A stretch of DNA of 64,000 nt from Bacillus sp. ISL-41 (GTDB lineage: Bacteria; Bacillota; Bacilli; Bacillales; Cytobacillaceae). Where the stretch lies: assembly GCF_018613235.1 (NCBI RefSeq), contig NZ_JAGGQP010000016.1, forward strand, positions 124,001 to 188,000. The letters are read 5' to 3'. The translations under genes were made by a program, and so were the position numbers. The notes beneath the pieces were generated by a model that had not been told where the DNA came from, ran no database searches, and saw only the letters and a program-made list of their open reading frames with translations. Shown one piece after another: positions 7,364-54,262 of the stretch (position 1 is the stretch's first letter; every line of letters starts with the position of its first letter).

Positions 7364-7429
7364 AGAATTGTGAAGGGTATGCCAAATAACCGTTCGAAAC
7401 CTGCAATTTCGAACGTCTGCAGAACCTCC

Positions 7430-7552
7430 ATCTTCTCCCATCCAGACTATACTGTCGGCTTTGGAATCGCACCAAATCCTGCCCTTAGGCTCGCGGGCTT
7501 AGAGAATGTATCTCATTACCGCCGATCGGGAATTTCACCCTGCCCCGAAGAT
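7430..7552 (-). ncRNA. FMN riboswitch (RFN element)
   Basis: Read on the minus strand this has the conserved RFN blocks in order: ATCTTCGGGGCAGGGTGAAA, TTCCCGATCGGCGGTAAT, AGCCCGCGAGCC, GGCAGGATTTGGTGCGATTC, CCGACAGTATAGTCTGGAT and GGGAGAAGAT. The first and last blocks pair as P1. It senses FMN and controls ribU by transcription termination. Confidence 0.97.
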
Positions 7553-7775
7553 AGACCATATTTAATTTAACAAGTTTATTATACTGAAAAAAAGATATTT
7601 TGTGAAGGTGTATGCTTGTGACGATTTTTTGTCTGAAATACTTTAAATGTATTTTGGTCAAAAAGAGGTTAATGATTGAAAAAAATTCTGCTAAATTCGG
7701 ATTAACAGAATATATTTAGAATAATTCAATTGAATTTGGCAGCGCTTGCATTGTATTCATGAACAATTTGAGAGT

Positions 7776-14417: not shown

Positions 14418-14600
14418 TAAATCTGTTGGAAGGGTACTAATGAACAATTTTCTCCTGATTTTCTTTAGATTTGTCCGATTGAGGAGTTCTTATGGACACT
14501 TTTTCCTTGTTGCCACTCGCATTTGTCCGATAGAGGTGCTCTAACGGACACTTTCCCCTAAGTTCCACTTCAGTTTGTCCGATAGAGCCATATTAACGAT
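14418..14600. repeat. 52-bp tandem hairpin repeat, array A
   Basis: TTTGTCCGAT recurs at 14470, 14522 and 14574, exactly 52 bases apart, with a decayed unit before (about 14418). The best unit has arms TGTCCGATAGAG / CTCTAACGGACA around a 3-base loop, then a pyrimidine-rich spacer. It fills most of the 440-base gap between sigX and resE, and shares arm sequence with the array near 54.1 kb. Confidence 0.8.
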
Positions 14601-33627: not shown

Positions 33628-33940
33628 ATTGGTGACCTGTTTTTTCAGATTCTTGATTTTTTGGCCACCAATATGCCTCATTGGTGACCTCTTTTTCCAG
33701 AATTTTGATTTTTCGGGCGCCAATACGCTTCATTGGTGACCTATTTTTCCAGTATCTTGATTTTCTGGGCACCAATATGCTTCATTGGTGACCTATTTTT
33801 CCAGTATCTTGATTTTCCGGGCACCAATATGCCTTATTGGTGACCTATTTTTCCAGAATTTTGATTTTTCGGGTGCCATACGCTATATTGGTGATCTCTT
33901 TTCCTAGTAACTGGGATTTCCGAGCATTATTACGCCTCTT
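33628..33940. repeat. 52-bp tandem hairpin repeat, array B (six units)
   Basis: ATTGGTGACC-like motifs start at 33628, 33680, 33732, 33784, 33836 and 33887, spaced 52, 52, 52, 52 and 51 bases. Each unit pairs CACCAAT with ATTGGTG around a 7-base loop (ATGCTTC-type), then has a pyrimidine-rich spacer of about 30 bases (CTATTTTTCCAGTATCTTGA). The last unit is degenerate. The array fills the gap between sigF and spoVAA. Confidence 0.95.
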
Positions 33941-33952
33941 TTTCCTGCAGAC

Positions 33953-33986
33953 AAAAAAGCCATATGGATTCAAAGATCCATACGGC
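33953..33986 (-). terminator. sigF operon terminator
   Basis: GCCGTATGGAT pairs with ATCCATATGGC around a 6-base loop, followed by TTTTTTG on the minus strand; it overlaps the sigF stop. Confidence 0.9.
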
Positions 33987-34728
33987 CTTTCATTTGCTGC
34001 AGTATTTTCTTTTCGAGACGTGAAACCTGGACTTGGGATATTCCCAGGCGGACTGCGACCTCGGACTGAGTCTGATCCTTATAGTACCTCAAATACACGA
34101 TCAGTCTTTCCCGTTCGTCGAGCTCGTTAATTGCCTCTTTTAATGCAATTTTATCAAACCAGCGGCCTTCTTCCCCGTTGTCAATCTGGTCTAGCAGGGT
34201 AATTGGGTCGCCGTCGTTTTCGTACACCGTTTCATGGATGGATGCCGGACTGCGGCTTGCTTCCTGTGCCATGATCACATCTTCAGGCGAGAGTTCCAGA
34301 AACTCGGCAATTTCATTGACAGTTGGTACCCTGCCCAATGTTTTGGAAAGCTCATCCTTCGCTTTCCTTATCTTATTTCCGGTTTCTTTTAGTGACCTGC
34401 TTACCTTCACGGTGCCGTCATCCCTGATGAAACGCTGGATTTCACCAATGATCATTGGAACGGCATACGTCGAAAACTTTACGTCATACGAGAGGTCAAA
34501 TTTATCAACTGATTTCAAGAGGCCGATGCTGCCAATCTGGAACAGGTCGTCAGGTTCATATCCCCTGTTGAGGAAGCGCTGGACGACAGACCATACGAGT
34601 CGCATATTTTTCTGGACGATTAAGTCCCTGGCCCCCTGGTCACCCTGCTGGCTTCTCAAAATCAGTTCTTTGACTTCATGGTCCTTAAGATACGTTTGGC
34701 TATTATCCTTTTTTACCTCCACATCCAT
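33970..34728 (-). CDS. sigF: Forespore sigma factor SigF
   Basis: 252 residues. Region 2 (NMRLVWSVVQRFLNRGYEPD then DLFQIGSIGLLKSVDKFDLS), region 3 (SLKETGNKIRKAKDELSKTL) and region 4 with the helix-turn-helix QSEVAVRLGISQVQVSRLEK are all intact. It directs early forespore transcription after asymmetric division. SpoIIAB holds it inactive until SpoIIAA is dephosphorylated. Last gene of the spoIIA operon, 13 bases after spoIIAB. Confidence 0.98.
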   Translation of the reverse strand: MDVEVKKDNSQTYLKDHEVKELILRSQQGDQGARDLIVQKNMRLVWSVVQRFLNRGYEPDDLFQIGSIGLLKSVDKFDLSYDVKFSTYAVPMIIGEIQRFIRDDGTVKVSRSLKETGNKIRKAKDELSKTLGRVPTVNEIAEFLELSPEDVIMAQEASRSPASIHETVYENDGDPITLLDQIDNGEEGRWFDKIALKEAINELDERERLIVYLRYYKDQTQSEVAVRLGISQVQVSRLEKKILQQMKGRMDL

Positions 34729-54084: not shown

Positions 54085-54262
54085 CGTATGTTTCCAATAA
54101 GGCTTTTCGGACACTTTTCTCTTGTTCCAGCTTCTGTTTGGCCGATAAAGCCCTTCTATCGGACACTTTTTTCTTATTCCGGCTTTTGTTTGTCCGATAG
54201 AGACTTTCTATTGGACATTTTCTCATCCCTCGTATCATGTTTGGCCGTAAAGGTCGAGCCCC
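54085..54262. repeat. 52-bp tandem hairpin repeat, array C
   Basis: TTTGGCCGAT (54137), TTTGTCCGAT (54189) and TTTGGCCGTA (54240) are spaced 52 and 51 bases, with a decayed unit before. The clearest unit pairs TGTCCGATAGA with TTCTATTGGACA, followed by a T/C-rich spacer. The arms are those of array A at 14.5 kb. Lies between convergent yqkD and the lipoprotein gene. Confidence 0.8.

Follow-up and report, generated by a model that had tools for sequence, protein, structure and literature searches.

A shared dyad and a helical phase in the 52-bp tandem arrays of Mesobacillus suggest sites for a putative DNA-bending protein

Why do tandem arrays of unrelated sequence keep the same 52-bp period within one bacterial genome? 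The question is raised by a six-unit array between sigF and spoVAA in a stretch of 64,000 nucleotides of DNA (hereafter the window) from Bacillus sp. ISL-41. An earlier note, made from the sequence alone, proposed that a periodic hairpin layout, and not the primary sequence, is what is maintained there. SpoVAA of this genome is 98% identical to that of Bacillus sp. ISL-45 and 93, 89 and 86% identical to those of Mesobacillus selenatarsenatis, M. boroniphilus and M. subterraneus MITOT1, so that the window genome is a Mesobacillus.

Five of the six units start with ATTGGTGACC (at 33628, 33680, 33732, 33784 and 33836) and the sixth with ATTGGTGATC (at 33887). The sequence and Tandem Repeats Finder (period 52, 88% match) both bear out the six copies described earlier, spaced by 52, 52, 52, 52 and 51 bp. 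Four dyads are clear (Table 1). The last two units depart from the pattern: in the fifth, the right arm is shortened by a 1-bp deletion, and the sixth is decayed, starts one base early and has lost its right arm. A hairpin similar to the terminator-like one of Table 1 occurs 3' of sigF in three relatives (loci L033, L036 and L042). When the whole window was scanned for lags of 15 to 150, lag 52 was unique in having more than one site, at 14.46, 33.6 and 54.1 kb; the remaining lags with any site were 51, 103 and 104 at the 33.6-kb array and 147 elsewhere. Tandem Repeats Finder likewise placed period 52 at three places in the window, along with short weak repeats of other periods, and the further arrays of equal period reported earlier at 14.4 and 54.1 kb are thereby verified. 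The window also contains an FMN riboswitch at 7426-7556 (minus strand, 120.9 bits).

Table 1. Coordinates of the sigF-spoVAA array, its dyads and neighbouring genes, and the two other 52-bp arrays of the window
Feature	Position	Strand	Basis or remark
Six-unit 52-bp tandem array, family A, GGTC variant	33628..33937	-	Sequence, Tandem Repeats Finder, lag scan
sigF	33970-34728	-	Array lies downstream of sigF; gene name from the earlier note
spoVAA	32863-33498	-	Array lies upstream of spoVAA; gene name from the earlier note, SpoVAA relatives found
27-bp dyad GGTCACCAAT-N7-ATTGGTGGCC, first of four clear dyads	33663..33689	-	Contig 157663-157689
Second 27-bp dyad, GGTCACCAAT-N7-ATTGGCGCCC	33715..33741	-	Genome dyad search
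Third 27-bp dyad, GGTCACCAAT-N7-ATTGGTGCCC	33767..33793	-	Genome dyad search
Fourth 27-bp dyad, GGTCACCAAT-N7-ATTGGTGCCC	33819..33845	-	Genome dyad search
Terminator-like hairpin overlapping the sigF end, reached immediately before the array when sigF is transcribed	33953..33987, approximate	-	Read from the sequence
Second 52-bp array, family B	14462..14598	.	Exact TGTC-N19-GACA at 14472-14498 and 14524-14550; third TGTC at 14576
Third 52-bp array, family B	54096..54231	.	GACA at 54110; TGGC..GACA at 54139-54165; exact TGTC-N19-GACA at 54191-54217

The earlier note knew of no described family with this design; the class has in fact been published by Subirana & Messeguer in 2021 (PMC8161180). 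Repeats of 51-53 nt made up 1886 of the 4029 tandem repeats found in 176 Bacillus genomes, and those of 20-21 nt another 781; a 40-41 period class is mentioned as well (PMC8161180). The 52-nt class, present in some Bacillus lineages and also abundant in Paenibacillus, was described as noncoding, strict in length, variable in copy number between strains and divided into many sequence families per genome, with B. selenatarsenatis, B. boroniphilus and B. subterraneus, relatives that we found at the sigF-spoVAA locus, named as carriers (PMC8161180). Its authors reported no sequence conservation between families, left the number 52 without explanation and suggested as roles either a protein polymerising on the DNA or a small RNA; their Table 2 lists species-specific signals that often occur with their reverse in the same repeat (PMC8161180). 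The text discusses helix turns for the 20-21 class only and contains neither 'curv' nor 'intergenic' (PMC8161180). The 52-nt repeats of B. coagulans are reported as transcribed in a companion paper (PMC8625621). The window array belongs to this constant-size 52-nt class: it has at least four repeats of a length within 51-53, its genome harbors several families of equal length and different sequence, and the arrays are noncoding, the other frequent periods being 20-21 and 40-41.

To establish how prevalent the period is, tandem arrays were surveyed in 1.264 Mb of Mesobacillus DNA, namely 400 kb of the window's own genome, 400 kb of genome G003, 200 kb each of G005 and G007, and the 64-kb window. 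Apart from the window, where the observation had been made, the stretches were evenly placed or arbitrary to avoid selection by sequence, and four 20-kb stretches chosen for their family-A matches (L163, L165, L166 and L167) were left out. Genes were defined by a simple open-frame rule, and arrays overlapping frames by at least 35% were set aside as coding; these included four Mesobacillus arrays with periods of 51-52 bp and a single 52-bp array from other genera. Among the 50 noncoding arrays of the Mesobacillus survey, 26 have a period of 52, four of 53, seven of 20-21 and six of 40-42, with one array each at 25, 56, 61, 81, 89, 123 and 156; without the window, 23 of 47 are at 52 and four at 53. 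An excess of the 52-bp period in other intergenic regions, which the earlier note had proposed as a check, is thus present. The own-genome sample held nine noncoding arrays at 52 and two at 53, and extrapolation of the Mesobacillus survey to 4.6 Mb suggests about 100 arrays of 52-53 bp per genome. Across all samples, the 31 units of 52 bp represent 21 families under 62% identity; the period is indeed kept while most of the sequence changes, both within the genome and across genera. Other genera gave seven noncoding arrays of 51-53 bp out of 17 (1.066 Mb), and no 52-bp array was seen in the outgroup, for which just 100 kb from 10 genomes of the class were sampled, too little for inference. A TTATTGGCGA-type repeat recurs at L115, L116 and L131 (G003), L197 (own genome) and L221 (G005); its periods of 41, 61 and 81 bp are all multiples of roughly 20.4 bp.

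The consensus units of 37 arrays of 51-53 bp (30 from Mesobacillus and seven from elsewhere) were then compared, and a common element emerged. Sixteen of the 37 units, all of them from Mesobacillus, carry TGTC-N19-GACA without a mismatch, a dyad that measures 27 bp from end to end; shuffling the units gives an expectation of 0.01. When one mismatch is tolerated, the count rises to 20 (0.48 expected), and the motif is missing from the other 17. The window array is among the latter, with three mismatches, the arrays at 14.4 and 54.1 kb having 0 and 1. The published consensuses also carry the motif: in the 20 of 27 Table 1 entries of PMC8161180 retained for this test (the 51s and the SG-1 entry being dropped), five units have it exactly (0.01 expected) and seven at no more than one mismatch (0.24 expected). 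The half-site can further be recognized within two of the published species-specific signals, AARGACA of B. coagulans and AAAGCTGTC of alkalitelluris (PMC8161180), and an array-weighted matrix extends it to AANNTGTC(C/A)(G/A), with the span again 27.

In a search of the 1.264 Mb over periods 40-65 and spans 12-45, exact double TGTC/GACA pairs numbered 86 at period 52 and span 27, the next combination reaching 6. With one mismatch allowed, this double pattern gave 96 matches in 17 arrays of the same DNA against 0 in the reversed-letter control, and 330 against 0 in the complete own genome. It is present in 84 of 121 genomes of the bacterial family and in 17 of its 24 sampled genera, at least 10 times in 66 genomes and not at all in 37, the total being 11065 matches (up to 736 per genome) against 13 in the control. 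The 118 genomes of the class outside the family yielded 2 matches against 2 in the control, which is chance level; the TGTC pattern is restricted to one bacterial family among those sampled. No double pattern was found in the Mesobacillus genome G012 or in any of the 13 sampled genomes of genus g2, and hundreds occur in most other Mesobacillus. About half of the arrays are covered by the motif. It does not suffice for the published class in its entirety, because it falls to control level outside the family although 52-nt repeats are reported as abundant in Paenibacillus (PMC8161180); the 20-21 and 41-42 bp classes are likewise unexplained by a 27-bp dyad. The absence of sequence conservation between families does not hold for these units, about half of which have TGTC-N19-GACA in common, and the shared dyad thus revises the published description rather than excluding membership of the 52-nt class. 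In the literature searched, which included PMC8161180, no report of the shared dyad pattern came up.

The array between sigF and spoVAA follows the same layout with other letters. Its geometry is a 27-bp dyad, GGTCACCAAT-N7-ATTGGTG[N]CC, together with a 25-bp linker, which matches the TGTC arrays and makes it a GGTC variant of the TGTC-N19-GACA geometry. Seven arrays of its family (family A), aligned in one orientation, share the register ATTGGTGCCC...GGTCACCAAT with a 7-base spacer, and the GGTC 27-bp dyad with at most one mismatch was found at 57 forward places in the genome, against 0 in the control. A search of the own genome with the window array matched many intergenic places; the 63 matches at E<=10 include overlapping and weak ones. 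Family A is present in 18 of 21 genomes of the genus (E<=1e-12) and in five of the 24 genera of the 121-genome family sample (E<=1e-10).

A second common property is a helical phase. In 31 consensus units of 52 bp (26 from Mesobacillus, five from other genera), the fifth harmonic of AA/TT dinucleotides, corresponding to 10.4 bp, accounts for 12.4% of spectral power, compared with 5.7% for equal draws from 2569 noncoding 52-mers outside arrays, none of 2000 such draws being as high. Reduced to the 21 families under 62% identity, the same harmonic has a z of 8.5 against shuffles, its neighbours having -2.0 and 1.3. Table 1 of PMC8161180 served as an independent set for replication; 23 of its 27 entries were used, with lengths of 51-53 and two of the three 51s among them. 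The harmonic recurred in 15 non-redundant 52-nt consensuses (0 of 1000 shuffles as high) and in three of 53 nt (5 of 1000), and was absent from two of 51 nt (461 of 1000 as high); it is weak in the 20-21 and 41-42 bp arrays, of which there are few. In the 26 units bearing the motif with at most one mismatch, AA/TT peaks lie about 5, 16 and 26 bp to either side of the dyad centre, and the phase is locked to the dyad (R 0.88, 0 of 1000 shuffles as high, the units not all being independent families). Dyad symmetry alone favours 0 or 180 degrees; the informative observation is that all but one of these units lie within 50 degrees of 180. Relative to PMC8161180, the additions made here are a dyad that is shared across species and always spans 27 bp, the phasing at 10.4 bp and the lock between the two.

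Adjacent array units differ by 45 gaps and 1190 substitutions, against 1954 gaps and 12462 substitutions in other noncoding DNA of the compared Mesobacillus loci (overlapping pairs being counted more than once); indels per substitution are thus about fourfold rarer in arrays, part of which may be selection by the method, as ungapped lag matching favours low indel counts. The arrays lie between tandem genes in 13 cases, convergent genes in eight and divergent genes in five, against 156, 38 and 67 in other spacers of at least 250 bp. Convergent placement has a Fisher P of 0.046; the arrangement departs only mildly from that of other spacers, and strict placement at operon ends is not supported. 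On the leading strand, the mean purine share of 18 arrays is 0.565, with 11 of them reaching at least 0.55 and three not exceeding 0.45; in 273 other spacers the share is 0.516. In 20 family-A regions, partly chosen to include exceptions, arrays near the terminus (L233-L236, L238 and L250, at 0.43-0.57 of the chromosome) are nearly strand-neutral, with purine shares of 0.44-0.50, and most of those away from it have a purine-rich leading strand, L237 and L239 being exceptions. That the purine strand follows replication direction rather than genes is a weak tendency and suggestive only.

The sigF-spoVAA spacer itself could be followed through relatives. The C-terminal motif of sigF was found upstream of spoVAA at 77 of 80 relatives' loci, and nine of these 77 spacers contain a lag-51/52 array, most relatives having none. 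Within Mesobacillus, ISL-45 (L033) has a single unit in this spacer and M. boroniphilus (L036) about two; L041 has none, and several units are present in L034, L035, L037, L039, L040 and L042. Arrays of other sequence occupy the same spacer, each between the sigF end and the spoVAA start, in Robertmurraya kyonggiensis (L098), Bacillus sp. SG-1 (L086) and P14.5 (L090), all with period 52, and in Neobacillus sp. DY30 (L060) with period 51. The Robertmurraya array carries an exact TGTC-N19-GACA; those of SG-1, P14.5 and DY30 are without it, at 3, 2 and 4 mismatches. About 3.2-3.4 kb upstream of spoVAA, tandem arrays with periods 52, 57, 81 and 41 occur in L041, L091, L092, L096 and L099. Two of the loci, L034 (titled Chryseobacterium sp. 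ISL-80) and L059 (titled Pseudomonas sp. ISL-84), encode a Bacillaceae-type SpoVAA with 93% and 64% identity and are probably mislabelled or contaminated.

We propose that the array is probably a row of sites for a putative dimeric, sequence-specific, DNA-bending protein, set five helical turns apart. Each unit comprises a 27-bp dyad with half-sites at its ends and a linker of about 25 bp, the half-sites being TGTC-N19-GACA in the largest group of arrays and GGTC-N19-G[AC]CC in most units of the window family. A repeat of 52 bp amounts to five turns and would place successive dimers on the same face of the DNA, and AA/TT every 10.4 bp, at about 5, 16 and 26 bp on both sides of the dyad centre, would give every site a bend in the same direction. 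Under such a row of dimers, intergenic DNA would follow a curved or coiled path and form a compact nucleoprotein block between genes. We infer that the protein would bind, and that it would bend the DNA or polymerise on it, with a role in nucleoid structure or in the insulation of transcription units. The conserved feature points to recognition of double-stranded DNA by a protein rather than to a folded strand, because the arms covary no more than in shuffles, arm and loop lengths vary between families while the total stays 52, and TGTC and GACA keep a fixed 27-bp span.

This last point bears on a very unlikely alternative, in which the arrays are transcribed and their hairpins act as RNA, be it as small RNAs, protein sponges or terminators; both the hairpin layout proposed in the earlier note and one of the published suggestions would lead to it. 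The window array comes directly after a terminator-like hairpin, the B. coagulans repeats are reported as transcribed (PMC8625621), and dyads reach a shuffle P<=0.05 in 22 of the 37 surveyed arrays and 14 of 23 published consensuses. Folded as single-stranded DNA, an idealised family-A unit is stable (z -5.1) and the natural unit of L008 moderately so (z -2.6), whereas three other natural units fold little or no better than shuffles with DNA parameters (z -0.6 for the window, 0.2 for L005 and -1.2 for L004). Covariation was assessed on 31 family-A units from several genome places, six of 37 rows (L016, L037 and L042) being dropped. In the outer stem, six of ten pairs are invariant and none is changed on both sides; in the inner stem, three of five pairs are changed on both sides, in four cells, fewer than the shuffle mean of 6.8. 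A structured RNA with covarying stems was accordingly rejected, the covariation score of the units being equalled or exceeded by 496 of 500 shuffles, and Rfam gave no match over the arrays at gathering score. The arms had been called conserved or compensated: their positions are mostly invariant, and compensation does not go beyond chance. Nor is it evident why an RNA should preserve a phase of 10.4 bp, or a period of exactly 52 nt in which arm, loop and spacer lengths compensate one another. The earlier observation is confirmed in part and its interpretation supported in part, the maintained feature appearing to be something other than a hairpin layout in itself.

Two further explanations dispense with a host function or with selection on the period. 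A mobile or amplifying recombinase or transposase might recognise TGTC-N19-GACA-like ends and add units by a 52-bp ruler, leaving arrays as by-products without host function; we consider this unlikely, although several observations would suit it, namely the dispersal of family A over many places of the own genome, its presence in 18 of 21 genomes of the genus, copy numbers at sigF-spoVAA that run from zero (L041) through one (L033) and two (L036) to several (L037, L042), and a purine-rich strand that weakly follows replication. It also has a familiar parallel. Small serine resolvases use TGTC-ended half-sites within 28-bp sites; the serine-recombinase half-site, TGTCYR, occurs as an inverted pair that spans about 28 bp, and in gamma-delta res, whose subsites are helically phased, some 53 bp separate the first site from the second. 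The arrays appear to resemble such res sites in half-site type, dyad length and phased spacing, and differ from them in forming tandem series at roughly 100 places per genome, by extrapolation. On account of these likenesses, a resolvase-like protein of the own genome, P0002 (L263:1057-1641, plus strand, contig C23), was tried as general reader of the arrays and rejected, having no match at 1e-5 in seven array-rich Mesobacillus genomes (G002, G003, G004, G006, G007, G011 and G013), which also speaks against the recombinase. P0002 contains an HTH_7 domain, matches to which occur in 14 of 14 control genomes; its aligned catalytic serine and DRLGR stretch are changed, and relatives with 48-61% identity exist in several other genera, with several matches in some genomes. 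To judge from its sequence, it possibly represents a non-catalytic resolvase family. A ruler alone, finally, leaves the dyad-locked AA/TT phasing unexplained. Neutral descent, in which an old 52-bp array drifts, unequal exchange keeps its copies alike and the period is merely inherited, appears highly improbable: arrays of unrelated sequence and equal period do share the sigF-spoVAA spacer in Mesobacillus, L098, L086 and L090 (51 in L060), but drift is not expected to keep TGTC-N19-GACA, or a helical phase in 21 families that differ in sequence. Relative to substitutions, indels in the arrays are only about a quarter as frequent as elsewhere in noncoding DNA, a figure subject to the ungapped-detection bias.

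The REP/BIME elements of enterobacteria cluster in tandem. They are likewise intergenic and palindromic, and links to DNA supercoiling and termination have been proposed for them; the arrays here differ in being head-to-tail with fixed helical spacing and another motif. The genome encodes two Y1_Tnp (RAYT-like) genes, L031 (C4) and L032 (C23), each with its own GC-rich palindromes nearby. An origin by RAYT/REP was rejected, as both genes are flanked by palindromes that by eye are unrelated to the arrays, an observation that also weighs against a transposase as the source of the units. CRISPR arrays share the regular repeats with a partly palindromic portion, but here the segments that separate the dyads of one array are similar to one another instead of forming unique spacers, and the period is 52.

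On the scale of the family, the arrays may tentatively be regarded as a 'satellite chromatin': some 100 intergenic blocks per genome in which a putative protein would read TGTC-N19-GACA dyads, GGTC and other variants included, every five turns on AA/TT-phased DNA, the rest of the sequence being free. If this is true, the puzzle of the constant size would be solved, for the family sampled, by helical geometry together with two four-base half-sites. The shared dyad and helical phase turn the published enigma of length into a concrete question of protein binding. If the protein is found, it would reveal an architectural DNA-binding system in many members of the family, 66 of the 121 genomes having at least 10 doubled sites, and an unusual case in which the geometry of DNA, more than its sequence, is the selected feature.
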